A stretch of DNA of 32,665 nucleotides from contig JAPLQZ010000156.1 in the NCBI GenBank assembly GCA_026399415.1, positions 1 through 32,665 of the forward strand, given 5' to 3'. Position 1 is the first letter of the stretch; the number at the start of each line of letters is the position of its first letter. Source of the DNA: Rhodocyclales bacterium. Its GTDB lineage: Bacteria > Pseudomonadota > Gammaproteobacteria > Burkholderiales > Rhodocyclaceae. This document shows positions 1-16,343 of the stretch, one piece after another. The translations under genes and the position numbers were made by a program. The notes beneath the pieces were generated by a model that had not been told where the DNA came from, did not search any database, and saw only the letters and a program-made list of their open reading frames with translations.

Positions 1-1
1 T

Positions 2-1291
2 GCCGGAGTCGCGGCCGACGAAATCGCCGACCCCCGGCCGTGGGCGGAACTGCTGCGGCAGTGGTCGACCTTCCATCCGGAATTTGCCTATCTGCCGCGC
101 AAGTTCAAGGTGGCGATAAGCGGCTCCAGAGAGGATCGCACGGCACTCCTGGTACATGACCTCGGCCTGCAACTGGTAAGGAACGGCGGTGGCGAGCTCG
201 GCTTTGCGGTGCACGCCGGGGGAGGCCTTGGCCGCACTCCACTACTGGCGCAAAAGCTGGTCGATTTTCTGCCCTGGCAACATCTCTTGACCTATTGCGA
301 AGCGCTGCTGCGGGTGTACAACCGTTTCGGCCGCCGCGACAACATCTACAAGGCGCGCATCAAGATTCTGGTCAAAGCCATTGGCAGCGAAGAGTTCGCG
401 CGCCAGGTGGAAGCGGAATGGGCACATCTGAAGGATGGTCCTTCGACGCTCACAGAGGCCGAAGTAGATCGCGTCGCCGCACAGTTTGCCGCGCCCAACT
501 ACGAGAATCTTGCCAGCGAGGATCTCTGCCACATTGCCTTCCAGCGCGAAGACAAAGCCTACGCACGCTGGGTGGAACGCAACGTGCACCCGCACCGGGT
601 TCCCGGCTATGCCGCTGTCACTCTGTCGCTGAAAAAACCTGGGGCATCTCCCGGCGACGCCACTTCGGCGCAAATGGAAGAAGCGGCAGAACTCGCCGAG
701 CGCTTCAGCTTCGGTGAAATTCGCGTTTCCCATGAACAGAATCTGATTCTCGCCGACGTCCCGCAGCGTGATCTATACACGATCTGGCAGCGCGCCAAGG
801 CCACCGGACTGGCGAGCCCGACGGTGGGCCTGCTGGCCGACCTGATCTGCTGCCCCGGCGGTGATTTCTGCTCGCTGGCCAATGCCAAGTCCCTGCCGAT
901 TGCCGAGGCTGTCCTCGATCGCTTCGCCGATCTCGACTACCTGCATGACGTTGGCGAGATCGAGCTCAATATCTCCGGTTGCGTAAACTCCTGCGGCCAC
1001 CATTATCTGGGTGCGATCGGCATTCTCGGCGTCGACAAGCACGGCGAGGAGTGGTACCAGATCACCATGGGTGGCGCCCAAGGCAACGCAGCGGTCATTG
1101 GCGAAACCCTTGGTCCTTCCTTCGCCGCGGCAGACGTGCCGGATGTCATCGAGCAGCTGATCGAAACCTATCTTGTTTGCCGCCATGTCGATGAGAGCTT
1201 CAGTGACACCGTACGCCGTATCGGACTGGAACCCTTCCGTGCTTCGGTCTATTCCAACACCACCTCGCAAAGGAAAACTGCAAATGCGTAA
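2..1291 (+). CDS. cysI: Sulfite/nitrite reductase hemoprotein (CysI-like), 5' end outside window
   Basis: This is the siroheme and [4Fe-4S] enzyme that reduces sulfite to sulfide in cytoplasmic sulfate assimilation. The reading frame is open from base 2, so the ORF-track start (GTG at 110) is internal: codons before it read FHPEFAYLPRKFKVAI, a conserved stretch of the family. About 429 residues are present and the N-terminal part is missing. The cluster and siroheme ligands are visible as C-x5-C (CPGGDFC, near base 851) and C-x3-C (GCVNSCGHH, near 978). The gene heads a sulfate reduction operon and its end overlaps the DUF934 gene by 8 bases. A nitrite reductase role cannot be excluded from the motif alone, but the cysH/cysD/cysN neighbours favour sulfite. 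Confidence 0.93.
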   Translation, partial: AGVAADEIADPRPWAELLRQWSTFHPEFAYLPRKFKVAISGSREDRTALLVHDLGLQLVRNGGGELGFAVHAGGGLGRTPLLAQKLVDFLPWQHLLTYCEALLRVYNRFGRRDNIYKARIKILVKAIGSEEFARQVEAEWAHLKDGPSTLTEAEVDRVAAQFAAPNYENLASEDLCHIAFQREDKAYARWVERNVHPHRVPGYAAVTLSLKKPGASPGDATSAQMEEAAELAERFSFGEIRVSHEQNLILADVPQRDLYTIWQRAKATGLASPTVGLLADLICCPGGDFCSLANAKSLPIAEAVLDRFADLDYLHDVGEIELNISGCVNSCGHHYLGAIGILGVDKHGEEWYQITMGGAQGNAAVIGETLGPSFAAADVPDVIEQLIETYLVCRHVDESFSDTVRRIGLEPFRASVYSNTTSQRKTANA

Positions 1292-1820
1292 CTTGCAAAC
1301 CCATCGACTCATCAAGGAACGTCTTCTGCAGGAGGACGTATGGAAAGTCGTCACCCTGATCGACGGCCAGCCCGAACTTGACGTGTGCCTGCCGGTCGGC
1401 CCGCTGTTGGTGCCGATCTCGGTCTGGAAGGCGAAGAAGGACTGCCTGATCCATCGTGAATACGAGCATGGCACTCCGCTCGGAATCTGGTTGTCACCTG
1501 ACGACGATCCGGCCGAAATCGCCAAGGACGTCGACGACTTCACGGTTATTGCCGTGCATTTCCCGAAATTCACCGACGGCCGCGGCTATTCGACCGCCCG
1601 CCTGCTGCGCGAGCGCTATGGCTATGACGGCGAACTGCGCGCCTTTGGCGATATCGGCCGCGACCAGATCTTCTTCCTCAATCGGGTGGGCTTCGACAGC
1701 TTCCTGATCGGCGAAGGACGCAATGCTGAAGAGGCCCTTGCCGCATTCGACGACTTCCCCGAGGCCTATCAGGCGGGAGCCGATTTGCCTATTCCTCTGT
1801 TCCGCCGCCGCGCGGCCTAA
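1284..1820 (+). CDS. DUF934 family protein, sulfite-reductase-associated
   Basis: This is a 178-residue protein of the DUF934 family, whose members commonly sit next to cysI and cysH in proteobacteria and are often labelled oxidoreductase-like; the biochemical role is not established. The conserved core is seen around DGRGYSTARLLRERYGYDG and GDIGRDQIFFLNRVGF. The ORF track starts at 1173, inside cysI. The ATG at 1284 is chosen because AAAGGA lies just upstream, the protein then starts MRNLQTHRLI, and the overlap with cysI is only 8 bases, typical of translational coupling. The protein is acidic, with no signal peptide or membrane segment. A supporting role in sulfite reduction is inferred from context only. 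Confidence 0.88.
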   Translation: MRNLQTHRLIKERLLQEDVWKVVTLIDGQPELDVCLPVGPLLVPISVWKAKKDCLIHREYEHGTPLGIWLSPDDDPAEIAKDVDDFTVIAVHFPKFTDGRGYSTARLLRERYGYDGELRAFGDIGRDQIFFLNRVGFDSFLIGEGRNAEEALAAFDDFPEAYQAGADLPIPLFRRRAA

Positions 1821-1830
1821 CGAGAGCATC

Positions 1831-2595
1831 ATGATCCGAGAATCGCTGCCTGACCTGGCCAATCCTGAGTTGGTGGACATCGTTGCGGCAAAGGCCGCGC
1901 GAGCCATTACGCTCTTGCGCAACATAGCGCGCGACTACGCACCGGTAGTCTTCGCCAACAGTCTGGGTGCCGAGGACATGGTGCTGACCGACCTGATCTG
2001 GCGCGAGGAAATCAACATTGCGATATTTTCGCTGGATACCGGTCGTCTTCCGGTCGAAACCTACGATTTGATCCATCAAACGGAAAAACACTACGGACGC
2101 AAACTGGACATTTTCTTTCCACGTCACGAAGCGGTCGAAGCCTACGCCCGCCGCCACGGCAGCCACGGCTTTTACGATTCGGTGGAGGCGCGCAAGGCGT
2201 GCTGTCACGCGCGCAAGGTCGAGCCGCTGCAACGCGCGCTGGCCGGCAAGGGAGCCTGGGTCACCGGCCTGCGTGCAGGCCAGTCGGCGACGCGGGACAG
2301 GCTGAAGGTCATCAGCCAGGACACGACGAACAACCTGGTCAAGGCGAGCCCCCTGACGGACTGGAGCGAAGCCGAAGTCTGGGTTTATCTGAGAGCCAAC
2401 AACGTGCCCTACAACCGGCTGCATGATCGCAACTATCCGAGCATCGGCTGCGCTCCCTGCACCCGTGCCATCCAGCCCGGCGAGGATGTGCGCGCCGGCC
2501 GCTGGTGGTGGGAAACCCCGGAAACCAAAGAATGCGGCTTGCATCTGGTGGATGGCCGCCTGCAACGTACTTCAAGACAGGTGGCCGAGGCATGA
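1831..2595 (+). CDS. cysH: Adenylylsulfate (APS) reductase, thioredoxin/glutathione-dependent, Fe-S type
   Basis: This 254-residue cytoplasmic enzyme reduces activated sulfate to sulfite. Two cysteine pairs are visible, C124-C125 (KACCHARKV) and C207-x2-C210 (GCAPCTRA). In this family they bind a [4Fe-4S] cluster and mark enzymes that prefer APS over PAPS. The catalytic cysteine is C235 in KECGLH. The N-terminal FANSLGAEDMVLTDLI is the adenylyl-binding region of the PAPS-reductase fold. The ORF-track start at 1723 lies inside the DUF934 gene; the ATG at 1831 (MIRESLPDL), ten bases past the DUF934 stop, is preferred, though its ribosome binding site (GAGAG) is modest. The stop overlaps the cysD start as ATGA. 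No cysC is visible in the window, which fits direct use of APS. Confidence 0.93.
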   Translation: MIRESLPDLANPELVDIVAAKAARAITLLRNIARDYAPVVFANSLGAEDMVLTDLIWREEINIAIFSLDTGRLPVETYDLIHQTEKHYGRKLDIFFPRHEAVEAYARRHGSHGFYDSVEARKACCHARKVEPLQRALAGKGAWVTGLRAGQSATRDRLKVISQDTTNNLVKASPLTDWSEAEVWVYLRANNVPYNRLHDRNYPSIGCAPCTRAIQPGEDVRAGRWWWETPETKECGLHLVDGRLQRTSRQVAEA

Positions 2596-3515
2596 GTACG
2601 CTGGCCTTGCATCAGCGCGCTACGCTGTCGCATCTGGATTGGCTGGAGGCGGAGTCCATCCACATCCTGCGCGAAGTAGCCGGGCAATGCGCCAATCCCA
2701 CCCTGTTGTTTTCCGGCGGTAAGGACTCGCTGGTCCTGTTGCGCCTGGCTGAAAAGGCTTTTCGGCCAGGACGATTTCCCTTTCCTCTGCTCAATATCGA
2801 TACCGGTCACAACTACGACGAAGTAATCGATTTCCGCGACTCACGCGCCTGCCAGCTGAATGAACGGCTGATCGTGCGTTCGGTCGAGGATTCGATGCGG
2901 CGGGGCACCGTGGTGCTGAAATCGCCCGGCGAGTCGCGCAACAAACATCAATCCGTCACGCTGCTCGAAGCCATTGCCGAATTCGGCTTCGACTGCTGTA
3001 TCGGCGGCGCCCGGCGCGACGAGGAAAAGGCCCGGGCCAAGGAACGCATCTTTTCCTTTCGCGACGAATTCGGCCAGTGGGACCCGAAAAACCAGCGGCC
3101 GGAATTATGGGACCTGTTCAACGCACGCGTGCACAAGGGCGAGAACATCCGCGCCTTCCCCATTTCGAACTGGACCGAACTCGATGTCTGGCAATACATC
3201 GAGCGTGAAAAGCTCGCCTTGCCTTCGATCTACTTCGCGCACAAACGGCAGGTGGTCAGGAAGAACGGGCTGTTGCAGCCGGTGACTGAACTGACCCCGG
3301 CGCGCGCTGGCGACGTCGTCGAGGAACTGACGGTGCGTTTTCGCACCGTGGGCGACATTACCTGCACTGCGCCGGTCTTGTCGGATGCCGATACGGTCGC
3401 CCGCATCATTGAGGAAACGGCGATAACCACGATTACCGAACGGGGTGAGACCCGTCTCGACGACCAGACCTCGGAAGCCTCCATGGAACAACGCAAGAAG
3501 GAAGGATACTTTTGA
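2592..3515 (+). CDS. cysD: Sulfate adenylyltransferase subunit 2 (ATP sulfurylase small subunit)
   Basis: CysD carries the ATP-pyrophosphatase domain that joins sulfate to AMP, forming APS, in a complex with the GTPase CysN. The protein is 307 residues, close to the usual family length. The PP-loop is SGGKDS at residues 41-46, and the C-terminus is QRKKEGYF, typical of CysD. The ORF track begins at 2505 inside cysH. The true start is the ATG at 2592, which overlaps the cysH stop (ATGA), so translation is probably coupled; a GGCCGAGG stretch upstream may serve as ribosome binding site. The stop codon overlaps the cysN start by one base. Nothing in the sequence looks abnormal. Confidence 0.96.
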   Translation: MSTLALHQRATLSHLDWLEAESIHILREVAGQCANPTLLFSGGKDSLVLLRLAEKAFRPGRFPFPLLNIDTGHNYDEVIDFRDSRACQLNERLIVRSVEDSMRRGTVVLKSPGESRNKHQSVTLLEAIAEFGFDCCIGGARRDEEKARAKERIFSFRDEFGQWDPKNQRPELWDLFNARVHKGENIRAFPISNWTELDVWQYIEREKLALPSIYFAHKRQVVRKNGLLQPVTELTPARAGDVVEELTVRFRTVGDITCTAPVLSDADTVARIIEETAITTITERGETRLDDQTSEASMEQRKKEGYF

Positions 3516-4795
3516 TGAGCGCGCCTGAGCGTCTGCCGGCGATCGACAACGGCCTGCTGCGCTTCCTCACCTGTGGCAGTGTTGACGATGGCAAGAGCAC
3601 TTTGATCGGCAGACTGCTCTACGATACCAAGACCATCCTGGCCGATACTCTGCACGCCATCACACGCACCTCTGAGCGGCGCGGGCTCGAAACGGTCGAT
3701 CTCTCGCTGCTGACCGACGGACTGCAAGCCGAACGCGAACAAGGCATCACGATCGACGTGGCCTATCGCTATTTCACCACCGGACGACGCAAGTACATCA
3801 TCGCCGACGCCCCAGGCCACGAGCAGTACACACGCAACATGTTCACGGCGGCGTCGACCGCGAACCTGGCGATCATCCTGATCGACGCGCGCAAGGGAGT
3901 GCTGACCCAGACCCGGCGCCATTCCTATCTCGCGCATCTGCTCGGCATTCCACACATCGTGGTGGCGATCAACAAGATGGATCTGGTTGACTTCGATCAG
4001 GCCACCTACGAGCGAATCCGCGGCGAGTACCGCGAATTTGCAGCAACTCTTGGTATCGGTGACGTCAGCTTCATTCCGCTGTCGGCGCTCGACGGTGACA
4101 TGATTGTCGATCGCGGCGCCCGGCTGGACTGGTATCAGGGGCCGACGCTGCTCGACATACTCGAGGATGCACCCGGCGCACACAGCGAGCGCGACGAGCC
4201 TTTCCGCTTTCCGGTGCAGTTTGTCTGCCGGCCACAGAAGTCCGGAAATCCGAAACTCCACGATTATCGAGGCTTCATGGGCCGGGTGGAATCCGGCGAG
4301 ATCGGCGTGGGAGACGAAGTGTGGGTGTTGCCATCGGAGAAGCGCACGCGGATCAAGGCCATCGAAGTCCACGGCCACTCGCTGCCGCGGGCGATTCCCG
4401 AGCAGTCAGTCACACTCTTGCTCGAAGACGAAATCGATGTTTCCCGCGGCGACATGATCGTTCGTGCCGAAGAGTCGGCGCTGGTGACACGGCGCATCGA
4501 GACCATGCTCTGCTGGCTGGACGAAACACCGCTCGACCCGCAACGAAAATACCTGATCCGTCAGACCACGCGCGAAACCAGGGCGGTGATCGAGAGCATC
4601 GTCTACCGGCTGGACATAAACTCGCTGCTGCAGAAACCTGCCGAGCGTCTGGAAATGAACGACATTGCTCGCGTGTGCTTTAGGCTCGCTCAACCGCTGT
4701 GCGTCGATACCTACGTCGCGAACCGCTCCACCGGAGCCTTCATCGTCATCGATGAGACGGCCAACAGCACCGTGGGTGCCGGGATGATTATCTGA
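3515..4795 (+). CDS. cysN: Sulfate adenylyltransferase subunit 1 (CysN GTPase, no CysC domain)
   Basis: CysN is an EF-Tu-like GTPase whose GTP hydrolysis drives APS synthesis by CysD. Its 426 residues contain GSVDDGKST (G1, 21-29), DAPGH (G3, 98-102) and NKMD (G4, 153-156), followed by beta-barrel domains. It ends after VGAGMII with no APS-kinase extension, so it is a plain CysN and not a CysNC fusion. The ORF track uses a TTG at 3512; the ATG at 3515 is preferred because it forms the coupled TGATG junction with the cysD stop and has GAAGGA upstream. It is the last gene of the operon, followed 22 bases later by a terminator. Confidence 0.96.
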   Translation: MSAPERLPAIDNGLLRFLTCGSVDDGKSTLIGRLLYDTKTILADTLHAITRTSERRGLETVDLSLLTDGLQAEREQGITIDVAYRYFTTGRRKYIIADAPGHEQYTRNMFTAASTANLAIILIDARKGVLTQTRRHSYLAHLLGIPHIVVAINKMDLVDFDQATYERIRGEYREFAATLGIGDVSFIPLSALDGDMIVDRGARLDWYQGPTLLDILEDAPGAHSERDEPFRFPVQFVCRPQKSGNPKLHDYRGFMGRVESGEIGVGDEVWVLPSEKRTRIKAIEVHGHSLPRAIPEQSVTLLLEDEIDVSRGDMIVRAEESALVTRRIETMLCWLDETPLDPQRKYLIRQTTRETRAVIESIVYRLDINSLLQKPAERLEMNDIARVCFRLAQPLCVDTYVANRSTGAFIVIDETANSTVGAGMII

Positions 4796-4817
4796 TCACG
4801 CGGGACTCTCAGAGCGC

Positions 4818-4846
4818 AAAAAAGCCAGGCATCGCCTGGCTTTTTC
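4818..4846. terminator. Bidirectional rho-independent terminator between convergent cysN and rplQ
   Basis: A 7-bp perfect stem GCCAGGC / GCCTGGC with an ATC loop is flanked by six A on the left and five T on the right. Read on the + strand it ends the cys operon; read on the - strand it ends the alpha operon after rplQ. The A and T flanks can pair to lengthen the stem. Confidence 0.9.
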
Positions 4847-4863
4847 TTGGTGACCGCAGGAAC

Positions 4864-5256
4864 TTACTCGACGACCGGCGCCTCGGCGATCTCGCCAGCC
4901 GGACGGTCCAGCAGCTCAACAAAAGCCATTGGCGCATTGTCGCCGACACGGAAGCCCATCTTGAGAATACGCAGATAGCCACCGTTGCGGGCAGCATAGC
5001 GTGGGCCGAGCTCGTCGAACAACTTGCCGACGATTTCGCGGTCACGCGTGCGATCGAAGGCAAGACGGCGATTGGCCAAGCTGGGCTTCTTGCCCAAGGT
5101 GATCAGCGGCTCGACTACGCGGCGCAGCTCCTTGGCCTTGGGCAAGGTGGTCTTGATGGCCTCATGGCGCAACAGGGAGACTGCCATGTTGCGCAGCATC
5201 GCCTGGCGGTGCGAAGAGGTGCGATTAAGTTTGCGAAGTCCGTTACCGTGACGCAT
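4864..5256 (-). CDS. rplQ: 50S ribosomal protein L17
   Basis: L17 is a large-subunit protein that binds 23S rRNA near the exit tunnel. The 130-residue product opens with [20 protein letters not shown], the L17 signature, and has the usual length, including [14 protein letters not shown] in the middle. A GAGGAAA ribosome binding site precedes the ATG. It is the last gene of the alpha operon, 130 bases after rpoA, and runs into the shared terminator with convergent cysN. The short acidic C-terminal tail ([10 protein letters not shown]) is variable in this family. Confidence 0.97.
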
Positions 5257-5278
5257 TTTGATTTCCTCGTTTTTTTGC

Positions 5279-5302
5279 GGCCATCGCGCGATGCAAATGG
5301 CC
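5279..5302 (-). other. Hairpin in rpoA-rplQ intergenic region
   Basis: Inverted repeat GGCCAT / ATGGCC encloses a 12-base perfect palindrome CATCGCGCGATG at 5282-5293, just upstream of the rplQ ribosome binding site. In RNA, either pairing could affect access to the rplQ start. No promoter was convincing in this 130-base gap. Confidence 0.4.
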
Positions 5303-5386
5303 GGTTAATGGTTATCGAGAGTTGGTGAATCAGTGTTGCAAGTGAAACAAATGCTGCAAACGGGCCGAAACCCGGTGTTAGATCAA

Positions 5387-6370
5387 TCAGGCCAACTTCT
5401 CGAGCCCTGCGGGCGGCCAGCTTTCGAGCTTCATGCCCAGCGTCAGGCCGCGCGAAGCCAGCACTTCCTTGATTTCGTTGAGCGACTTGCGACCGAGATT
5501 TGGGGTCTTCAGCAGTTCTGTTTCGGTACGCTGAATCAGGTCGCCGATGTAATAGATGTTCTCGGCCTTCAGGCAGTTGGCGGAACGAACCGTCAGTTCA
5601 AGGTCGTCCACCGGGCGCACCAAAACCGGATCAACCGAATTTTGCTTGGGCGCTTCGGCAGACATCGGCGTCCCTTCGAGGTCGGCGAATACCGACAGTT
5701 GCTCCATGAGGATGCGGGCCGCAGTGCGCACCGCTTCTTCGGCATTGTCGATGGCGCCGTTGGTCTCGATGTCGAGAATAAGCTTGTCAAGGTCGGTGCG
5801 CTGTTCCACGCGCGCCGACTCGACGGAATAGCTGACGCGGCGCACGGGACTGAACGAAGCATCGAGCATGATCTGGCCGATGGCGCGGTTCTCGCGGGCG
5901 ATTTCGCGCTGGTTGGCCGGCACATAGCCGCGGCCGGACTCGACGCGGATCTGCATGTTGAGCTTGCCGCCGGGCGCAATGTGCGCGATGACGTGATCCG
6001 GGTTCACGATTTCTACGTCATGAGTGGTTTCGATATCGCGTGCAGTGACGACGCCTTCGCCGTTTCTGGAAAGAGTGAGCGTGGCCTCACGGCGGTTGTG
6101 CATCTTCAGCACCACACCCTTGAGATTCAACAGAACGTCGACTACGTCCTCGCGAACGCCGTCCAGCGTCGAGTATTCGTGGAGCACGCCTTCGATCGAT
6201 ACCTCGGTCGGAGCGACGCCTTCCATCGAGGACAGCAGAATGCGGCGCAACGCGTTGCCAAGCGTGTGGCCGTAACCGCGTTCGAACGGCTCCATGACGA
6301 CGCGGGCATGCAGCGGCGAAAGCTGCTGGACATCGATACTGCGGGGTTTCAGAAGTGTGTGCATGTGCAT
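5387..6370 (-). CDS. rpoA: DNA-directed RNA polymerase subunit alpha
   Basis: Alpha dimerises to nucleate RNA polymerase assembly, and its C-terminal domain contacts UP elements and activators. The 327 residues include the N-terminal signature [20 protein letters not shown] and a C-terminal domain with [19 protein letters not shown] and [13 protein letters not shown], the helix-hairpin-helix DNA-binding part. The length is as expected. Two starts are possible: the ATG at 6370 (MHMHTLL) sits directly against GAAGGA with no spacer, while the ATG at 6364 has a six-base spacer. The longer form matches the usual number of residues before LLKPR better. It lies downstream of a strong terminator-like hairpin after rpsD. 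Confidence 0.97.
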
Positions 6371-6388
6371 TCCTTCGAATGGAAAACT

Positions 6389-6433
6389 AAGCTTAGCGAA
6401 GCTTCAGTGCAGGCCAATGCCTGCGAAGCAGGC
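6389..6433 (-). other. Two small hairpins in the rpoA leader
   Basis: Two perfect 6-bp stems stand side by side: AAGCTT-AGCG-AAGCTT at 6389-6404 and GCCTGC-GAA-GCAGGC at 6419-6433. They lie between the large rpsD-distal hairpin and the rpoA ribosome binding site. A role in rpoA translation or mRNA stability is possible but is not shown by the sequence. Confidence 0.4.
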
Positions 6434-6442
6434 GTTATGCCG

Positions 6443-6478
6443 AAACTAAAACGCCTGGCGTCCGGTGGACGCCAGGCG
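6443..6478 (-). terminator. Terminator-like hairpin between rpsD and rpoA
   Basis: On the - strand, a perfect 12-bp stem CGCCTGGCGTCC / GGACGCCAGGCG with a three-base loop is followed at once by TTTTAGTTT. This is the form of a rho-independent terminator, 13 bases past the rpsD stop and inside the alpha operon. It may act as a partial terminator that lowers rpoA and rplQ expression relative to the ribosomal proteins, or as an mRNA end-protecting stem. Confidence 0.65.
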
Positions 6479-6490
6479 CAAAACCAGGTG

Positions 6491-7120
6491 TTAGCGCGAA
6501 TACAGTTCGACAACCAGACCCTCATTGATCGAGGGCGGCAAATCTTCGCGCGCAGGGTATGACTTGAAGACACCCTTGCCAGCCTTCACATCCACTTCAA
6601 GCCACACGGGAAAACCGCGTGACTCAGCCGCCTCCAGAGCAGCCTTGGTGCGCAAATGGCTGCGAGTGCTGTCGAGCAACTGGATGACATCACCCGGACG
6701 TACGTTGTACGACGGAATATCAACTCGCTTGCCATTGATCAGCACGCCATTGTGGCGAACCACTTGTCGTGCTTCCGCGCGCGATACGCCAAACCCCATC
6801 CGGTAGGCCACGGTGTCGAGGCGACCTTCGAGCAGCTTCAGCAGATTCTCGCCGGTCTGTCCCTTTTTGCGCTCGGCATCGCCGAACACTTTGCGGAACT
6901 GCCGCTCAAGAACGCCGTATATGCGACGGATCTTTTGCTTTTCGCGCAGTTGCGTACCGTAACCGGACAGGCGCTGTCCGGACTTTTGGCCGTGCTGGCC
7001 GGGCGCGTAGGCACGGCGCTCGACGGAACATTTGTCAGTGAAGCACTTCTCGCCTTTGAGGAACAGCTTTTCGCCCTCGCGGCGGCACTGGCGGCACTTG
7101 GCATCTAGGTTGCGGGCCAT
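6491..7120 (-). CDS. rpsD: 30S ribosomal protein S4 (zinc-binding C+ form)
   Basis: S4 is a primary 16S rRNA binder that starts 30S assembly; in enterobacteria it is also the translational repressor of the alpha operon. The 209-residue protein begins [12 protein letters not shown] and has four cysteines (C9, C12, C26, C31) in the pattern of the zinc-binding C+ version, unlike the cysteine-poor E. coli S4. The S4 RNA-binding domain is visible from about residue 97 ([14 protein letters not shown]). It lies between rpsK (20-base gap) and rpoA. No abnormality is seen. Confidence 0.97.
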
Positions 7121-7140
7121 GGTGTCGTATCCTTATTGCC

Positions 7141-7530
7141 TTAGATGCGGCGGCGCGTGGGCGGCCGGCATCCGTTGTGGGGAATCGGGGTAATGTCGGT
7201 GATACTGGTAATCTTCATGCCGAGCGCATTGAGCGCACGCACCGCTGATTCACGTCCGGGGCCGGGGCCCTTGATGCGAACTTCGAGATTCTTTACACCA
7301 CACTCCTGAGCAGCCTTGCCGGCAGCCTCGGCGGCGATCTGCGCGGCAAATGGGGTCGACTTGCGGGAACCCTTGAAGCCGGCGCCACCGGAAGTCGCCC
7401 ACGCCAAGGCATTGCCCTGGCGGTCGGTGATGGTGATGATGGTGTTGTTGAAGGAAGCGTGAACGTGCGCGATGCCTTCGGCGACGTTCTTCTTGACCTT
7501 CTTGCGAACTTTGGTTGCGGTCTTAGCCAT
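7141..7530 (-). CDS. rpsK: 30S ribosomal protein S11
   Basis: S11 forms part of the platform of the small subunit near the mRNA exit. The 129-residue product has the typical basic N-terminus ([15 protein letters not shown]), then [19 protein letters not shown] and the C-terminal [17 protein letters not shown]. The length matches the family. It is second in the alpha operon, 18 bases after rpsM and 20 before rpsD, and an ordinary member of the cluster. Confidence 0.97.
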
Positions 7531-7548
7531 GTATTATTGGTTCCTGGT

Positions 7549-7914
7549 TTACTTCTTGCCCATCGAAATCGCCTTGCGCGGCCCCTTGCGGGTTCGCGCA
7601 TTGGTACGGGTGCGCTGACCGCGCACCGGCAGGCCGCGACGATGACGCACACCACGATAGCAGCCGAGATCCATGAGGCGCTTGATGTTCATCGTCGTTT
7701 CACGACGCAAATCACCCTCGACGGTGAACTTGGCTACCTCCTCACGCAAGCGATCCATTTCGCTGTCCGTGAGTTCCTTGATCTTGGCTGAACGCTTGAC
7801 GCCGACCGCATCGCAGATCTTCTGTGCGCGGGTACGGCCAATACCATAGATCGCCGTCAGAGCGATCTCGGTGTGCTGGTGATTCGGGATATTGACGCCT
7901 GCAATACGGGCCAT
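7549..7914 (-). CDS. rpsM: 30S ribosomal protein S13
   Basis: S13 sits in the head of the small subunit, contacts the P-site tRNA and forms bridges to the large subunit. The 121-residue protein starts [19 protein letters not shown] and ends with the basic tail [14 protein letters not shown]. It is the first gene of the alpha operon, with a candidate promoter about 70-95 bases upstream. The start is supported by CAGGTAAGC just before the ATG. No alternative function is plausible. Confidence 0.97.
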
Positions 7915-7982
7915 GTGCTTACCTGTTCGTCGCCGTTAGTGAATGCGGTGTGGTGGGCTAGCTGAAAAATGCGAAACCATAG

Positions 7983-8011
7983 ATTGTATCTGATCTGAAT
8001 CGCTCGATCAA
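7983..8011 (-). promoter_or_regulatory. Candidate sigma70 promoter of the alpha operon
   Basis: On the - strand, TTGATC (-35, 8006-8011) and TACAAT (-10, 7983-7988) are 17 bases apart, with a predicted start near 7976 and a leader of about 60 bases to rpsM. The -35 includes the TGA stop of rpmJ. An rpmJ-rpsM promoter is also where the E. coli alpha promoter lies. Confidence 0.6.
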
Positions 8012-8121
8012 CCTTGACGCTGCTTGTGTCGCGGATCGGTACAGATGACCCTTACCACGCCCTTGCGGCGGATGACTTTGCAATTACGACAGATACGTTT
8101 GACCGAAGCCAGAACTTTCAT
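8008..8121 (-). CDS. rpmJ: 50S ribosomal protein L36
   Basis: This 37-residue gene is too short for the ORF track. I translated it directly: [19 protein letters not shown], then [18 protein letters not shown] and TGA. C11, C14, C27 and H32 form the zinc ribbon of the C+ type of L36, a small protein bound to 23S rRNA late in large-subunit assembly. GGAG lies eight bases before the ATG. It sits between infA and rpsM, the usual end of the spc block. Its stop codon falls within the -35 of the predicted alpha promoter. Confidence 0.96.
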
Positions 8122-8147
8122 TGGAGTTCTCCGGAAATATTGCCAAA

Positions 8148-8366
8148 CTACTTGGCGCGGAACACGATGCGACCTTTTGAAAAGTCGTAGGGCGTAAGTT
8201 GCACGGTGACCTTGTCGCCGGGAAGGATGCGGATGTAGTGCATGCGCATTTTTCCGGAGATATGGCCAAGAACCACGTGCCCGTTCTCAAGCTTGATGCG
8301 GAACGTGGCATTCGGAAGATTTTCGACGACCTCTCCCTGCATTTCAATAACGTCTTCCTTCGACAT
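8148..8366 (-). CDS. infA: Translation initiation factor IF-1
   Basis: IF-1 binds the A site of the small subunit during initiation. The 72-residue OB-fold protein has the family's exact usual length and motifs ([31 protein letters not shown]). The ATG comes only three bases after the secY stop, and no Shine-Dalgarno is visible in the few bases upstream (GCCCGCTGATTC), so initiation probably depends on coupling to secY termination. Location between secY and rpmJ is common in betaproteobacteria. An overlapping ORF at 8084-8347 is a shadow. Confidence 0.97.
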
Positions 8367-8369
8367 GAA

Positions 8370-9698
8370 TCAGCGGGCCGGGAAACCGGCTCCCTTGAAA
8401 TTGGCCTTCTTCAGGAGACTTTCATACTGATGCGACATTACATAGGCCTGCACCTGCGACATGAAGTCCATTGTCACGACAACGATGATCAACAGGCTGG
8501 TGCCCCCGAAATAGAACGGCACATTCCACTTCAAGATAAGAAACTCCGGTAGCAGACAAACCACCGTGATATAGATGGCGCCGGCCAGAGTCAGGCGGGT
8601 CAGAATCTTGTCAATGTAGCGAGCTGTCTGGTCGCCGGGGCGAATGCCGGGAACAAACGCACCGCTCTTCTTCAGGTTGTCGGCCGTCTCCTTGGAATTG
8701 AACACCAGCGCGGTGTAGAAGAAGCAGAAAAATACGATTGCAGTGGCGTAGAGCATCACGTAGATCGGTTGCCCGGGGGACAGCGTGGCCGCAATGTCCT
8801 TGAGCCAACGCATGCCGTCACCCGATCCAAACCAGCCGGCAGCAGTAGCCGGGAACAGGATGATCGAGGATGCAAAGATGGGAGGAATAACGCCCGACAT
8901 ATTGAGTTTCAATGGCAGATGGGAGCTTTGGCCGCCGTAGACCTTGTTGCCAACCTGGCGCTTGGCATAGTTCACCAGGATCTTGCGCTGGCCTTTTTCG
9001 ACGAACACCACGAAGCCTGTGACCAGAACCACCAGAACGCAAATGAACAACGCCGAAATCGGGTGCATCGCACCGGTACGAACGAGTTCGAAGAGGCCGC
9101 CCAGTGCATTCGGCAAACCAGCCACGATGCCAGCGAAAATAATGATCGAAATGCCGTTGCCCAAACCTCGCTCGGTAATCTGCTCACCAAGCCACATCAG
9201 AAACATTGTCCCGGTCAGCAAGGTCAGCACCGTAACGAAGCGGAACAGGCCGCCCGGGTCGAGCACCAGTCCGGCCTGCGATTCAAGTGCAATTGCGATA
9301 CCGAGCCCCTGGAATAACGCCAGGGCGACAGTGCCGTAACGTGTGTATTGAGTAATCTTGCGGCGCCCGGCCTCACCCTCCTTCTTCAAAGCCTCCATCG
9401 ACGGCACAGAGATCGTCATGAGTTGCATGATGATCGACGAAGAAATGTAGGGCATGATGCCGAGCGCGAATAGCGTGAAGCGCGACAACGCACCGCCCGA
9501 AAAAAGGTTGAAGACGCCAAGAATTCCGCCCTGCTGACCCTGGAACAACTCCGCCAACTTGACAGGGTCAATTCCGGGCACGGGGATGTGCGCACCGATT
9601 CGATATACCACCAGCGCGCCCAGCAGGAACCAGAGCCGGCGCCAAAGGTCGCCAAACTTGCCAGTCTTGCCGAGAGATGCTGCCTGGGGGCTTGCCAC
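8370..9698 (-). CDS. secY: Preprotein translocase subunit SecY
   Basis: SecY is the channel of the Sec translocon in the inner membrane and works with SecE, SecG and SecA. The 442-residue protein has about ten hydrophobic segments and typical stretches such as [21 protein letters not shown] and [19 protein letters not shown]. The start is a GTG at 9698, with GAGGA eight bases upstream. It follows rplO by 21 bases in the spc block and is coupled to infA downstream. Length and content are normal. Confidence 0.97.
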
Positions 9699-9719
9699 GT
9701 GTTTCGTCCTCGTTAGCTA

Positions 9720-10172
9720 TCAGGCTGCGGCGATGTCTGCGACAGAACCGCCGGCGGCTTCGATTGCGGCACGGGCTCCTTTGGTCGCGCCAACGCCTTT
9801 AAGTGCGATCTTGCGATTGAGCTTGCCGGACAGAATAACTTTGGCCGACAGGGCATCCGCAGCAATCACGCCGGCCTGCTTCAGCACCAGCAGATCAACT
9901 TCTTCGACCGGCAGTTTGTCCAACTCCGACAGGCGCACTTCAACATTGCGGCTCGCCGTCAATGAAACGAATCCGCGCTTTGGCAACCGACGCTGCAACG
10001 GCATCTGGCCGCCCTCGAAGCCTACCTTGTGGAAACCACCGGCGCGCGACTTCTGGCCTTTGTGTCCGCGCCCGGCCGTCTTGCCAAGACCGCTGCCAAT
10101 TCCTCGTCCGACACGCTTGGAAGCGTGCTTGGAGCCGGCACCCGGCTTCAGGTTGTTAAGTTCCATACTCAT
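9720..10172 (-). CDS. rplO: 50S ribosomal protein L15
   Basis: L15 is a late-assembly protein of the large subunit with a long, glycine- and arginine-rich N-terminal extension, seen here as [24 protein letters not shown] split over residues about 20-45, followed by [15 protein letters not shown]. At 150 residues it is of normal length. Two starts are possible: the ATG at 10172 has AAGGGG six bases upstream, while the ATG at 10166 (MELNNLKP) matches many homologues. I keep the first because of its spacing. It lies ten bases after rpmD. Confidence 0.96.
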
Positions 10173-10182
10173 CGATATCCCC

Positions 10183-10365
10183 TTAGCCTTCGCACTTGAC
10201 CAGATAGGCCACTTTGCGGATCATGCCGCGCACTGCGGGCGTATCCTCAAGCACAGCCGAACTGTTGAGCCTCCTCAGGCCAAGTCCGCGCACCGTCGCG
10301 CGATGATCCTGCTTGGTGCCGATGACGCTCTTTACCAGCGTGACCTTGATCGTCTTGTCAGTCAT
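10183..10365 (-). CDS. rpmD: 50S ribosomal protein L30
   Basis: L30 is a small protein of the large subunit. The 60-residue product has the expected length and the signature [27 protein letters not shown]. It begins three bases after the rpsE stop region (rpsE ends at 10369) and is followed closely by rplO, in the standard spc order. Its ribosome binding site lies within the rpsE end. Nothing unusual is seen. Confidence 0.95.
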
Positions 10366-10368
10366 GGC

Positions 10369-10896
10369 TCACTCCAGAATTTCAGCGATGGCCTTGCCGC
10401 GCTTGGCGGCAATCTCGGCCGGGGTACTCATGGCCAGCAAACCATGCAGCGTTGCGCGCACCACGTTGTAAGGATTGGTCGAGCCGATGGTCTTGGCCAC
10501 CACGTCGGTAATCCCCATCACTTCGAACACAGCGCGCATCGGGCCGCCGGCGATGACACCGGTACCAGGAGACGCAGGGGACATCAACACTGTGGTTGCA
10601 CCGTGCTTACCGGTAACCGAATGGTGCAGGGTGCCATCCTTGATATTGATTTTTGACATCTTGCGACGCGCTTCCTCCATCGCCTTCTGAACGGCAACGG
10701 GAACTTCACGGGACTTGCCCTTGCCCATGCCGATGCCGCCATCGCCATCACCCACCACGGTAAGCGCCGCGAAACCGAGAATCCGGCCGCCCTTCACCAC
10801 CTTGGTGACGCGATTGATGGACACCATCTTTTCGCGCATGCCGTCGTCGCGCTCTTCCTGGGCCTGCTGCTGTTTCCTGCCTTGAGGTTTAGCCAT
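10369..10896 (-). CDS. rpsE: 30S ribosomal protein S5
   Basis: S5 contributes to mRNA unwinding at the entry channel and to decoding accuracy; spectinomycin binds nearby. The 175-residue protein has the double-stranded RNA-binding domain ([21 protein letters not shown]) and the C-terminal domain ([32 protein letters not shown]). The N-terminus is rich in Gln, Arg and Asp, as is usual in betaproteobacteria. It starts 11 bases after the L6-L18 fusion frame ends and is intact, so the anomaly upstream does not extend into it. Confidence 0.97.
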
Positions 10897-10907
10897 GTCC
10901 GTCTCGC

Positions 10908-11261
10908 TTAGAACTTGAGTCCGCCCTCACGGGCGGCTTCAGCCAGCGCCTTGACGCGGCCGTGGTAGTGGAAACCGGAGCGGTCGAAAGCAACCTGCTC
11001 GATGCCGGCCGCTTTGGCCCGCTCGGCGATGAGTTTGCCAACCGTCTTGGCGGCATTGACGTTACCGCCATTCGGAACCTGGCTCCGCACTTCCGGCTCC
11101 ATGGTCGAAGCGGCAGCGAGCACACGGGTGCCGCAGCCGGAGAAAATCTGGGCAGAGATATGCAAGTTGCTGCGATGCACCGCGAGGCGCACCACTTTGA
11201 GCTCCGCAATTTTGGCGCGGGTTTTGCGCGCCCTGCGCAGACGAGCCTGTTTCTTTTCCAT
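10908..11261 (-). other. rplR: L18 moiety of the fusion, retaining its native ATG (rplR)
   Basis: The L18 segment is complete at 117 residues and begins with its own ATG at 11261. The bases before it (GGTATGCAATC) contain no purine-rich Shine-Dalgarno at normal spacing, and there is no L6 stop codon nearby to allow termination-reinitiation. Separate L18 production would therefore need weak internal initiation or proteolysis of the fusion. In other genomes this segment is the independent gene rplR. Confidence 0.85.
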
Positions 11262-11759
11262 GATTGCATACCGGACGCCCTTGCCCTTGTAGGGCTCCGG
11301 AGACCGGTAGGCACGCACTTCAGCGGCCACCTGACCAACCACCTGCTTGTCGATCCCCTTGATCAGGATCTCAGTTTGGGTCGGCGTTTCAACTTTGATG
11401 CCGTTCGGCATATCGTGCGCGACTGGGTGCGAAAAGCCGAGCGTTAGGTTCAGCTTGGTTCCCTGAGCCTGCGCACGATATCCAACGCCGACCAGGGTCA
11501 GCTTCTTCTCAAAGCCCTTGGTTACGCCAATCATCATGTTATTCAGCAGCGCGCGCATCGTGCCCGACATGGCGCCCGCGTTGGGAGCACCCTCTATGGC
11601 ACGACAGAGCAACTTTTCACCGTCTCTCTCGATTTTCACTGCCGGCAACAAGAACTGCTTCAGCGTCCCCAGCGGCCCCTTGACAGCGACCTCGGCATCG
11701 GAAAGCGTGACTTCAACGCCTTTGGGCACATCAACCGGATACTTTGCAATACGTGACAT
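10908..11759 (-). CDS. rplF-rplR: In-frame fusion of 50S ribosomal proteins L6 and L18
   Basis: One 283-codon frame encodes two ribosomal proteins. Residues 1-165 are L6 ([17 protein letters not shown] to [13 protein letters not shown]), which binds 23S rRNA near the factor-binding site. Residue 166 is a single Ile, and residues 167-283 are a full 117-residue L18 ([17 protein letters not shown] to AREGGLKF), which binds 5S rRNA. L6 is normally about 177 residues, with roughly 12 acidic and lysine-rich residues after RYA, then a stop and a separate rplR ribosome binding site; all of these are absent. Both neighbours, rpsH and rpsE, are intact and standard. The gene could be a real fusion, a recent in-frame deletion, or an assembly error. 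L18 could still start at its own ATG, though no good ribosome binding site remains. Confidence 0.9.
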
Positions 11760-11771
11760 GACAGCGGCTCC

Positions 11772-12167
11772 TTAGGCGACGATACAGAGAACTTCGCCGC
11801 CCATGTTGCCTGCCCGCGCCCGGCGGTCGGTCATCACGCCCTTCGGCGTGGAGACAATGGCAACACCCAGCCCGTTCATGACGCGGGGCAAATCGTCCTT
11901 GCCCTTGTAAACTCGCAGCCCTGGCTTGGAAACGCGTTCGATACGTTCAATTACCGGATGCCCGGCGTAGTACTTGAGCGCAATATCGAGTTCAGGTTTT
12001 GCGCCATTCTCGCGAATAGCGAAATCATCAATGTAACCCTCATCCTTCAGCACCATGGCAATTGCCACCTTGAGTTTGGAGGAAGGCATGGAAACGGAAA
12101 GCTTCTCCGCCATCTGCGCGTTGCGGATGCGGGTCAACATGTCGGCAACTGGATCGGTCATGCTCAT
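11772..12167 (-). CDS. rpsH: 30S ribosomal protein S8
   Basis: S8 is a primary 16S rRNA binder and, in E. coli, the translational repressor of the spc operon. The 131-residue protein begins [18 protein letters not shown] and ends [17 protein letters not shown], both typical. GGAGATCCAT precedes the ATG at 12167, supporting this start over the second Met. It lies ten bases after rpsN and 12 before rplF. Length and sequence are normal. Confidence 0.97.
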
Positions 12168-12177
12168 ATGGATCTCC

Positions 12178-12483
12178 TTACCAGCTTGCCTTGGTCATGC
12201 CAGGCACTTCGCCGCGCATCGCAACCTCGCGCAGCTTGTTACGGCACAGACCGAACTTGCGAAAGACACCGCGGGGACGCCCGGTCAATGCGCATCGATT
12301 GCGCTGACGGGACGGACTCGCGTTGCGGGGCAACTGCTGGAGTTTCAGCCGCGCATCCATGCGCTCCTCATCCGACAGCTTGACGTTGTTGATCACGGCA
12401 AAAAGTTCGGCACGCTTGGCAGCGTACTTCGCTACCATCTTTGCGCGCTTTTCTTCGCGGTTAATAAGAGCTAGTTTCGCCAT
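12178..12483 (-). CDS. rpsN: 30S ribosomal protein S14 (long, zinc-free form)
   Basis: S14 sits in the head of the small subunit. The 101-residue product is the long C- type: the two CxxC pairs of the short zinc form are missing, and the conserved core reads [19 protein letters not shown]. It therefore differs from S4 and L36 in this window, which keep their zinc sites. It lies between rplE (7-base gap) and rpsH, the standard spc order. Confidence 0.97.
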
Positions 12484-12490
12484 ACGTCCC

Positions 12491-13030
12491 TCAGTTCTTG
12501 AAGGGGAACTTGAATGCGGCGAGAAGCGCCTTCGCTTCTTCGTCGTTCTTCGCGGTGGTGGTGATACTGATATTCATGCCACGCAACGCATCGATCTTGT
12601 CGTACTCAACCTCGGGGAAAATGATCTGTTCCTTGACCCCGACGTTGTAATTGCCACGCCCATCAAAGCCTTTGCCGGAAATTCCACGAAAGTCGCGGAT
12701 ACGCGGCATAGCTATGGTTACCAGGCGGTCAAGAAATTCGTACATACGATTTCCGCGCAGCGTCAGCATGCATCCGATCGGGTAGCCCTCACGAATCTTG
12801 AAGACCGCGATTGCCTTGCGCGCCTTGGTTACGACCGGTTTCTGGCCCGCGATCTTGGTCATGTCACCAACCGCGTGATCCAGCACCTTCTTGTCACCGA
12901 CCGCCTCACCCACACCCATATTCAAGGTGATCTTGGTAATGCGCGGAACTTCCATGATGGACTTGTAACCGAACTTCGTCAGAAGTTCGGGGACCACCGT
13001 CTGTTTATAGAATTCCTGCAAGCGCGCCAT
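12491..13030 (-). CDS. rplE: 50S ribosomal protein L5
   Basis: L5 binds 5S rRNA together with L18 and forms part of the central protuberance, contacting the P-site tRNA. The 179-residue protein starts [16 protein letters not shown] and contains [17 protein letters not shown] and [17 protein letters not shown], with the typical end AAFKFPFKN. The length is normal. In E. coli the S8 repressor binds mRNA near the start of this gene; I could not establish an equivalent structure here. It follows rplX by nine bases. Confidence 0.97.
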
Positions 13031-13039
13031 GACTGATCC

Positions 13040-13357
13040 TTACGCGTCAACAACTTCGCCGTTCGACTTGAACACCCGAACCTTGCGGCCATCGTCGAGT
13101 TGCTTGAAGCCGACGCGATCCGCTTTCTGGGTGGCAGGATTGAACAGCGCCACATTGGAAACATTAATCGGCATTTCCTTCTCGACAATGCCGCCCTGAT
13201 TACCCTTAAGCGGGTTAGGCTTGGTGTGCTTCTTGACGCGATTGATGCCTTCAACAAGCAGGCGGTCTGCGTCGAGCCAGTTCAGCACAACACCGCGTTT
13301 GCCCTTGTCTTTACCTGTGGTAACAACCACGTCGTCACCCTTGCGAATCTTGTTCAT
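13040..13357 (-). CDS. rplX: 50S ribosomal protein L24
   Basis: L24 is an assembly-initiating protein of the large subunit that binds the 5' end of 23S rRNA. The 105-residue protein contains the KOW motif near its start ([19 protein letters not shown]) and the conserved [23 protein letters not shown]. It lies between rplN (22-base gap) and rplE in the standard order. Nothing unusual is seen. Confidence 0.97.
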
Positions 13358-13379
13358 GATCGAGTCCTTGATTGCCGGT

Positions 13380-13748
13380 TCAAAGAACCTCGGGAGCCAG
13401 CGAGACGATCTTCATGAATCGCTCGGTGCGCAACTCACGCGTCACCGGGCCGAAGATTCGTGTGCCGATCGGTTCCAGCTTGTTGTTCAGCAATACCGCT
13501 GCGTTGCCATCGAACTTGATGAGCGATCCGTCTGAACGACGCACGCCCTTGGCGGTACGCACCACCACTGCGCTATAAACCTCACCTTTTTTGACACGGC
13601 CACGCGGTGCGGCATCCTTGATGGTGACCTTGATGACGTCACCAATGCCGGCATAGCGACGCTTGGAACCACCAAGCACCTTGATACACATGACCGAACG
13701 CGCGCCAGTATTGTCGGCGACATCCAGCAGAGACTGCATTTGAATCAT
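13380..13748 (-). CDS. rplN: 50S ribosomal protein L14
   Basis: L14 lies at the subunit interface and forms a bridge to 16S rRNA. The 122-residue protein starts [19 protein letters not shown], the universal L14 signature, and ends [24 protein letters not shown] precedes the ATG. It is the first gene of the spc block: a 184-base gap separates it from rpsQ, and a strong candidate promoter lies about 110-140 bases upstream. A small hairpin AGCCC-CTAGC-GGGCT lies in its leader. Confidence 0.97.
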
Positions 13749-13860
13749 TTTTTCATCTCCAACTTAATCCGCGATTGACTCAAGTCCCGCGATCAGTCTT
13801 GGAGCCCGCTAGGGGCTGGGATGCCAGGAAGATAAAACCCCGGCGGAGCAAAGAGGCGAG

Positions 13861-13888
13861 ATTTTACATCCAGCCCTTACGTTGTCAA
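13861..13888 (-). promoter_or_regulatory. Candidate strong sigma70 promoter of the spc operon
   Basis: On the - strand, a perfect TTGACA (-35, 13883-13888) and TAAAAT (-10, 13861-13866) are 16 bases apart in the rpsQ-rplN gap, where the E. coli spc promoter also lies. The start region reads CTCGCCTCTTTGC, GC-rich before +1 as in stringently controlled promoters, and resembles the str and S10 promoters here. Confidence 0.8.
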
Positions 13889-13932
13889 CTACTTATTGCC
13901 GTATTGCAAGGTGCGCCACGACAAAGGTGCAA

Positions 13933-14205
13933 TCAGACCGCGCGGGCCTTTTCCACAACCTTGGCGACACGCCATGCCTTGGTCTTGGAAATTGGAGCGC
14001 ATTCCTCAATCTGCACCAGATCGCCGGCTACCGGCTCCGTGCCATCGACGTGCGCGTGATACTTTTTTGAACGCGTCATGATCTTGCCGATCACCGGGTG
14101 CTTGACCTTGCGTTCAACCAGTACCGTCACGGTTTTCTGCATCTTGTCCGAAACAACGCGCCCTTGGAGGGTGCGCCGCACGGTTTGAGTGGTCGCTTCC
14201 GTCAT
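13933..14205 (-). CDS. rpsQ: 30S ribosomal protein S17
   Basis: S17 is an OB-fold primary binder of 16S rRNA. The 90-residue product has the signature [22 protein letters not shown] and the core [19 protein letters not shown]. Its ATG overlaps the rpmC stop by four bases (ATGA), so the two are translationally coupled. It is the last gene of the S10 block, followed by the gap that contains the spc promoter. The length is normal, and no terminator is evident after it. Confidence 0.97.
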
Positions 14206-14396
14206 TTCGCCGCCGCCTTCTCACGCTGAATGGTTTTAACGCGCGCTATATCTTTGCGCACCTTGCCGACCTGGCTGGTATTGGTCAACTGTTGTGTAGC
14301 CACCTGCATGCGAAGCCCGAATTGCGCCTTGCGCAAGTCCAGCAACTCCTTTTGCAGATCCTCGTCGTTCTTAGCTCTAAGCTCACTTGTTTTCAT
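14202..14396 (-). CDS. rpmC: 50S ribosomal protein L29
   Basis: L29 is a small helical-hairpin protein near the exit tunnel, at the docking site of signal recognition particle and trigger factor. The 64-residue protein reads [26 protein letters not shown] at its start (shown here only to identify the family) and ends [15 protein letters not shown]. It begins three bases after rplP ends and overlaps rpsQ by four bases. The length is as expected. Confidence 0.96.
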
Positions 14397-14399
14397 GAC

Positions 14400-14813
14400 T
14401 TATCCCAAATGGCGGGTAACGAAGGTGGTTTCGAGCGGCAGCTTGGCCGCTGCAAGACGGAATGCTTCACGCGCAAGCGTCTCGTCGACTCCATCCATCT
14501 CGTAAAGGACCTTGCCGGGCTGGATCTCGGCGACCCAGTACTCAGGGGAACCTTTGCCGTTACCCATCCGAACCTCCAGTGGCTTCTTCGAAATCGGCTT
14601 GTCCGGAAAAATGCGGATCCAGATACGCCCGCCACGTTTGATATGACGAGTCATGGCGCGGCGCGCGGCTTCAATCTGGCGGGCCGTAAGACGACCGCGA
14701 CCGATGGCCTTGAGGCCGTATTCGCCAAAACTCACTTTGGCGCCTCGTGTCGCGAGCCCCGTATTGCGACCCTTTTGTTCCTTGCGATATTTTCTGCGGG
14801 CAGGTTGCAGCAT
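14400..14813 (-). CDS. rplP: 50S ribosomal protein L16
   Basis: L16 helps shape the A-site and the peptidyl transferase region of the large subunit. The 137-residue product opens [17 protein letters not shown] and contains [21 protein letters not shown] and [18 protein letters not shown], both hallmark segments; the Arg in EVRMGNGKG corresponds to the site hydroxylated in E. coli. It lies between rpsC and rpmC with gaps of three bases each. It is an ordinary member of the S10 block. Confidence 0.97.
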
Positions 14814-14816
14814 GTT

Positions 14817-15713
14817 TTACTCCTTGCCTTCTTTCGCTGCGCTATCGACACCCTCGGTCTTGGCCGGGGCCTTGCGAATACGCTTGACGGGGGTCTTTGG
14901 TGCTGCAGCAACGGCTTCCGGCTTGGCTTCCGGCTTAACTTCTGCAGCCTTCTTGGCCGGGGCGCGACGGGCGACGGGCTTGGCTTCGCCTTCGCCTTCG
15001 GTCCGGGGCTTCCCGGGAGGGCTGCGGCGCGGCTTGCGCTGATCATCAACAGCAGGCTCGGGAGTCGCCAGCAGAGCTTCACTGCGTGAAAGAATCTCGC
15101 CCTTGAACACCCATACCTTGATACCGATGATGCCATACGTGGTCTTCGCCTCGGCAGTACCGTAGTCGATGTCGGCACGCAGCGTATGCAGAGGCACGCG
15201 ACCTTCGCGATACCACTCCCTGCGGGCAATTTCGGCACCGTTCAGGCGTCCGGAACTCATGATCTTGATGCCCTGGGCACCGAGTCGCATGGCATTCTGC
15301 ATCGCCCGCTTCATGGCGCGGCGGAACATGATGCGCTTTTCGAGTTGCTGGGCAATCGAGTCGGCAATCAGTTGCGCATCGATTTCCGGTTTACGTATCT
15401 CTTCGATATTGACATGCACCGGCACGCCCATCTTGCGCTGAAGTTCAGCCTTCAGATGCTCGATGTCTTCACCCTTCTTGCCAATGACGACGCCCGGGCG
15501 AGCGCTATAAACCGTAACTCGTGCATTCTTGGCGGGGCGCTCAATCACGACACGACCGACAGACGCGTGTGCCAGTTTCTTTTTCAGGTATTCACGAACC
15601 TCAAGGTCTTCCTTGAGCATCTGAGGAAAAGTCTTGCTACTGGCGTACCAGCGGGAAGTCCAGTTGCGTGTGACCGAAAGACGAAAACCGATCGGATGAA
15701 TCTTTTGTCCCAT
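14817..15713 (-). CDS. rpsC: 30S ribosomal protein S3 with long basic C-terminal tail
   Basis: S3 lines the mRNA entry tunnel and has helicase activity. Residues 1-210 are standard: [12 protein letters not shown], the KH-domain loop [15 protein letters not shown] at about 74-88, and the C-terminal domain ending [13 protein letters not shown]. From about 211 to 298 there is an 88-residue tail rich in Lys, Ala, Pro and Glu, with repeating KPEA and APAK units, probably disordered. E. coli S3 has 233 residues, so this tail is long; extended tails are known in betaproteobacteria. No frame disturbance is seen. It lies between rplV and rplP. Confidence 0.97.
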
Positions 15714-15722
15714 GTGCCCTCC

Positions 15723-16052
15723 TTAATCGCCAACAGTCACGAAAATGTGACAAGTAGGCTTGAGGATGCGGTTGCCGCGTCCCTTGGCTCGCGCCGTGAA
15801 GCGCTTGAGCACTGTGCCCTTTTCGACATAGATACGCGTGATCTTCAGCGCATCGATATCTGCGCCATCGTTGTGCTCTGCATTGGCGATAGCCGACTCA
15901 AGCACTTTCTTGATGATTCCGGCACCCTTCTTGGGCGAAAATGCCAATATGCTGAGCGCTTGATCTACCGGCTTGCCGCGCACCAAGTCAGCAACAAGGC
16001 GCCCTTTTTGGGCGGAAAGTCGAACACCGCGCAAGTTTGCGTTAGTTTCCAT
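15723..16052 (-). CDS. rplV: 50S ribosomal protein L22
   Basis: L22 lines the nascent-peptide tunnel; its extended hairpin reaches the constriction. The 109-residue protein has normal length and the features [20 protein letters not shown] and, in the tunnel hairpin, [19 protein letters not shown]. No deletion such as those linked with macrolide resistance is apparent in the hairpin. It lies ten bases after rpsS and nine before rpsC. Confidence 0.97.
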
Positions 16053-16061
16053 CGTCGCTCC

Positions 16062-16343
16062 TTACTTCTTCGCGACGGCCTTCTTGCCGCCCGTGTGGCC
16101 CTTGAAGGTTCGCGTCAGCGCGAACTCGCCAAGTTTGTGACCAACCATGTTTTCCGACACATAGACCGGAATATGCTGCTTGCCGTTATGCACTGCAATG
16201 GTCAGTCCCACGAAGTCCGGAAGAATGGTTGAACGGCGCGACCAGGTCTTGATCGGACGCTTGTCGTTGGTGGCGCGCGCCGCATCAACCCGCTTCAGCA
16301 GGTGAGCATCAATGAACGGGCCCTTCTTGATAGAACGTGCCAT
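16062..16343 (-). CDS. rpsS: 30S ribosomal protein S19
   Basis: S19 is in the head of the small subunit and forms a complex with S13. The 93-residue protein begins [19 protein letters not shown] and contains [22 protein letters not shown] and [17 protein letters not shown], the full family signature. It lies three bases after rplB and ten before rplV. The length is normal. Confidence 0.97.

Follow-up and report, generated by a model that had tools for sequence, protein, structure and literature searches.

Of the 34 upstream operon segments found to be stabilised in E. coli, 26 end just past a stable hairpin without a termination U tract, and such T-less hairpins at the 3' ends of the stabilised segments are credited with exonuclease resistance (PMC5927463). 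In an archaeon, internal termination within ribosomal-protein/polymerase operons controls the polymerase subunits (PMC10450193). In Bordetella pertussis no promoter has been mapped for rpoA, which begins 214 nt past rpsD; mutations that raise RpoA lie 48 and 9 bp before the gene (PMC7742992). How one transcript can yield many ribosomal proteins and fewer RNA polymerase subunits is an unsettled question outside E. coli. Here we describe a hairpin with compensatory changes at the rpsD-rpoA junction, which provides a concrete site to test it.

The rpsD-rpoA junction

The window, a stretch of 32,665 nt, is one entire contig of a Rhodocyclales assembly of 3.1 Mb that is 86% complete. Its minus strand, to which all features below belong, carries the alpha operon rpsM-rpsK-rpsD-rpoA-rplQ. 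The cistron 5' of the hairpin is rpsD (positions 6491–7120, stop codon TAA at 6493–6491), assigned from its open reading frame and translation; its product S4 is 91–100% identical to that of the congeners. The rpoA frame (5387–6370) begins with ATG CAC ATG (6362–6370), and the first ATG at 6370 probably lies two codons upstream of the true start, since the ATG at 6364 has a better spacing to the Shine-Dalgarno sequence AAGGA (6371–6375) and agrees with the start in sister genera. The final cistron, rplQ for L17 (4864–5256, likewise from frame and translation), is followed by the operon terminator AGCCAGGCGATGCCTGGCT TTTTT (4818–4841), which served as positive control. Between the rpsD stop (6491) and the first rpoA ATG (6370) lies a spacer of 120 nt, which opens with CACCTGGTTTT; the neighbouring gaps between ribosomal-protein genes in the window are mostly 1–22 nt long and free of hairpins.

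An 11-nt linker (6480–6490), the length of which is kept in nearly all congeners, leads to the hairpin at 6479–6451, GCGCCTGGCGTCC-ACC-GGACGCCAGGCGT. The stem is followed by TTTAGTTT or, counted from the T of its terminal G-T pair, by TTTTAGTTT (6443–6451). The original prediction had seen here a perfect 12-bp GC-rich stem and a T tract, 13 bases after rpsD. Stem and tract are real, the stem having 13 bp made up of 12 Watson-Crick pairs and the G-T pair, but the 5' foot is located 11 nt past the rpsD TAA. With 10 G-C pairs among the 13 and a loop of 3 nt, the stem is as stable and G-C-rich as expected of a terminator. The fold of the 81 nt around it has a z-score of -4.6, and none of 200 shuffled sequences was equally stable. 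A consensus scan of the minus strand found no promoter-like site in the rpsD-rpoA interval, including the insert described below, which bears out the earlier statement that a clear promoter is missing between hairpin and rpoA.

A scan of positions 1–20000 of the window for terminator-like sites gave 17, with 20.7 expected, and hence no overall excess. A lone match of this type therefore means little, and the case rests on conservation, even though the rpsD-rpoA hairpin tops all 17 in total pairs and in G-C pairs. The window's genome has the exact core of the hairpin a single time, and other genomes rarely have it more than once, so we rejected a repeated palindrome. A search of Rfam gave no gathering-level match for the hairpin; the RmaA family remained below threshold (27.7 bits vs 57). 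The covariance model of the S4 leader, RF00140 (Alpha_RBS), did not match at the hairpin, nor was its gathering score reached by any reported match. At the rpsM start (7882–7921) there is a partial sub-threshold match to this model, with 29.9 bits vs 38. A second S4 site was also considered and rejected: the one proposed for E. coli precedes rplQ, is without strong evidence and is irrelevant here.

Conservation of the hairpin

Matches to the hairpin core, rarely more than one in a genome, were on contigs that bear the titles Sulfuritalea sp., Rhodocyclales or uncultured betaproteobacteria; the genus label Sulfuritalea is taken from these titles. The exact core was also present in three contigs titled Riflebacteria, Acidimicrobiaceae and Cloacimonadota (L053, L059 and L065), for which chance, other palindromes or misbinned contigs are candidate explanations.

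Congeners with a readable junction retain the hairpin, mostly in a spacer of 55 nt. Across 27 different spacers of the genus and its sister genera, all 351 of 351 stem pair-cells form standard pairs, and changes on both sides were found at 6 of the 13 stem pairs, a result matched by 0 of 500 shuffles. When the structure is slid along this alignment, pairing drops to 28–50%. Within the genus, divergence per site is 0.023 and 0.035 in the two stem halves, compared with 0.534 in the loop, 0.19 in the flanks and 0.380 at four-fold sites of rpoA. The hairpin is thus strongly selected as an RNA structure. Covariation and slow divergence together constitute the conservation in related species that is expected of a protective hairpin.

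Outside the genus, stems of 8–14 bp with unrelated sequence are found at the same location. Among the spacers of 54–85 nt in the family, 20 of 38 contain a stem of 10 bp or more without interruption, vs 0.63 after shuffling; much of the remaining family has spacers of 35–42 nt which lack a hairpin. Parsimony, applied to a tree of weak support, requires 12 changes. Similar hairpins occur in several further families of the order. Half of the family itself is without one, and so are E. coli-like operons. The distance from the rpsD stop to the 5' foot of the hairpin is 10–12 nt in the genus and 5–19 nt outside of it (median 10), whereas the distance from the hairpin to the rpoA ATG ranges from 15 to 218 nt outside the genus, and even where the spacer measures 104, 214 or 252 nt, the hairpin remains beside the rpsD stop. 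This close tie to rpsD and the variable distance to rpoA speak for a function that serves the upstream message.

The T tract and the inserted repeat

The T tract is not conserved along with the stem. In most congeners the tail reads TCGTCC or TTGTCC, the usual form being TCGTCCATTTGAAGGA or TTGTCC, and the T content after the hairpin is low (nT mostly 1.3–2.9). As a control, the tail of the rplQ terminator is T-rich in 20 congeners (nT 3.2–5.1, with a single exception of 2.2). A TTTT tail occurs in the window (L002) and five further genomes (L003, L004, L008, L013 and L024), and TTTTAGTTT in the window and L008. Outside the genus, at least five T in the next eight bases follow the stem in only 6 of 33 strong-stem genomes. 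According to a terminator-scoring formula, the window's hairpin reaches 39, the TTTT genomes 26–33 and the rplQ terminator 22; congeners without TTTT mostly range from -9 to +15, with one at 25.

In the window, 65 extra nt (6383–6447) separate the hairpin from the Shine-Dalgarno sequence, and the same insertion is present at the same site in genome G016 (L008). It is a copy of a dispersed palindromic repeat, the 5' end of which provides the AGTTT of the window's T tract and so lengthens the shared TTTT. The window's genome contains four copies at E <= 1e-4 plus weaker ones. The repeat was found in 21 of 23 genus genomes searched, usually with few copies per genome, many of them intergenic, and many copies fold as an imperfect palindrome. 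Genus-wide it has the form TTTAGTTTCGGCATAACGCC...GGCATTAGCCTGCACTGAAAC, with copies also in L083–L088 and L094–L123. A tree based on rpsD and rpoA is weakly supported and does not distinguish between a single and a repeated origin of the TTTT tail or of the insertion.

A second element upstream of rpoA

In four long spacers (L274, L286, L288 and L289) the sequence CAGCCTTATCGGTGTAACGAGCCGAGGGTATT stands beside the rpoA Shine-Dalgarno sequence; it is absent from the window. Of the order's 399 genomes searched, 53 contain the pattern, with one copy each; they belong to six other families. There were 0 control hits, and all 34 copies examined lie directly 5' of rpoA (L290–L319 in addition to the four above). 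Of 274 sampled genomes of the class only two contain it, both from this order. The element folds as GCCU-UA-UCGGU-GUAACGA-GCCGA-GGGU with 144 of 144 cells paired. One pair is changed on both sides (U-A to C-G); as the element is nearly constant, there is little covariation to be seen. Rfam gave no match for this leader hairpin, and the rpsD-rpoA junction of these bacteria is not among the new ribosomal leaders tabulated in 2020. The element is almost invariant, apparently undescribed and a candidate for a leader that would hold RpoA down. The spacer in L289 measures 214 nt, as in the Bordetella report, and the base about 48 upstream of its ATG is the 5' edge of the element. We infer from this spacer that the leader hairpin may explain the Bordetella mutation.

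Possible function of the hairpin

The best account of the conserved element, to which we assign a probability of roughly one half, is that of an intercistronic boundary or protective hairpin for the ribosomal-protein mRNA. It is drawn from the selection on the stem, its T-less state in most relatives, the closeness to the rpsD stop and the E. coli precedent. A permanent RNA hairpin would mark the border between the rpsM-rpsK-rpsD part and the rpoA-rplQ part of one transcript and, given the usual size of ribosome footprints, should fold clear of ribosomes ending rpsD or starting rpoA. Following cleavage in the less protected downstream part, the hairpin would halt 3'-to-5' exonucleases, so that the S13-S11-S4 messages might outlast the rpoA message and ribosomal proteins be made in excess over polymerase. 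In the window's genome the repeat insertion would have lengthened the T tract and pushed the hairpin away from the rpoA start, and may have added some leaky termination. Three points are to be set against protection: most relatives have a stable hairpin with no U tract behind it, but the copy in the window carries a T tract and scores as a terminator; half of the family manages without the hairpin, as do E. coli-like operons; and anchoring to the stop codon would equally be expected of a terminator.

The original prediction went further towards termination and suggested that the rpoA level could be tied to antitermination. At a leaky intrinsic terminator some polymerases would stop at the T tract, which would give less rpoA and rplQ than ribosomal proteins, and an antitermination complex might govern the readthrough; this is in our view rather unlikely. 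An archaeon offers an established case of internal termination at such a border of ribosomal-protein and polymerase genes (PMC10450193), the hairpins of the window and of the TTTT genomes have terminator-grade scores and a promoter downstream of the hairpin was not found; this last point cuts both ways, as rpoA and rplQ are presumably essential and have no other evident promoter. Moreover, most of the congeners and other genera that keep the hairpin lack the T tract although the rplQ tails of the congeners stay, and no antitermination signal was found in the rpsD-rpoA spacer, the sole perfect boxA-like sequence on the strand being that of the rpsJ leader about 13 kb upstream. The terminator-like appearance in the window thus holds by the scoring formula (39 vs 22), and leaky termination may occur in the window's own genome, but a terminator as general reading of the conserved hairpin is not supported.

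Two further explanations place the function of the hairpin on the side of rpoA. As a translation insulator it would isolate the rpoA ribosome-binding site from rpsD, so that rpoA is translated apart from the S4-regulated cistrons. The 3' foot lies 20–25 nt before the ATG in most genera, the E. coli alpha cistron escapes S4 repression (PMC10931766) and ORF-wise folding insulation is described for E. coli (PMC5318159). Yet long spacers keep the hairpin at the stop, 46–218 nt from the ATG, in the window it is 80 nt away from the rpoA ATG, and a good S4 leader was not found at rpsM, which makes insulation doubtful, too. Far less probable is a 5' protective hairpin of the papBA type, by which RNase E would cut the linker and leave the rpoA-rplQ message with a structured, stable 5' end: the Sulfuritalea linker GTAGTTTT does fit RN|WUU, the motif given for the RNase E of E. 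coli, but the linker sequence varies in other genera and in long spacers the hairpin is often distant from rpoA.

Some observations concern the gap between tuf and rpsJ (19183–19261), which contains the promoter-like sequence TTGCAC-17-TAAAAT (19255–19227). Its -10 element falls within a conserved palindrome, GAAAGGGCGATAAAATCTCGCCCTTTC, and 3' of the palindrome the boxA-like sequence GCTCTTTAA abuts the rpsJ Shine-Dalgarno sequence, an arrangement conserved in the congeners read. Because the palindrome overlaps promoter-like sequence, we no longer count this gap as a candidate for a second boundary hairpin. The rpsJ product, S10, is NusE, and so this leader sequence makes an autoregulation of S10 through boxA possible. 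A further boxA-like sequence with one mismatch, GTTCTTTA, is located shortly upstream of tuf (20465–20472).

Taking both elements at the junction together, we tentatively suggest, at less than even odds, that the rpsD-rpoA junction is a control point that evolved more than once in the order and uses RNA structure to balance RNA polymerase against the output of ribosomal proteins, through the stop-anchored hairpin in Sulfuritalea and its relatives and through the leader hairpin at the rpoA Shine-Dalgarno sequence in six other families. Rfam 15 and the literature searched yielded neither of them. Comparing the window with its T-less sisters offers a natural way of separating termination from protection.

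Comparison with known systems

With an intrinsic terminator the hairpin shares, in the window's genome, the G-C-rich stem, the short loop and the T-rich tail; here, however, the stem is conserved but the T tail is not, and two presumably essential genes for which no promoter was found lie downstream. The S4 leader of the alpha operon (RF00140) belongs to the same operon, where rpoA of E. coli is exempt from the repression that acts on its neighbours, but that leader is a pseudoknot at rpsM and not a hairpin before rpoA. The termination sites in archaeal operons for ribosomal proteins and RNA polymerase (PMC10450193) are situated at the same kind of junction and have the same presumed purpose, fewer polymerase subunits, although the mechanism is archaeal and there is no hairpin homology. 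The E. coli hairpins of Dar and Sorek 2018 (malE-malF type; PMC5927463) differ in that most of them lie inside the downstream gene, whereas here the hairpin is in the spacer right after a ribosomal-protein stop, its copy in the window has a T tract, and protection is proposed by analogy. In common with them, it is stable, intercistronic within one operon, mostly without a U tract in relatives, conserved across genera and placed at an expected step-down of expression.
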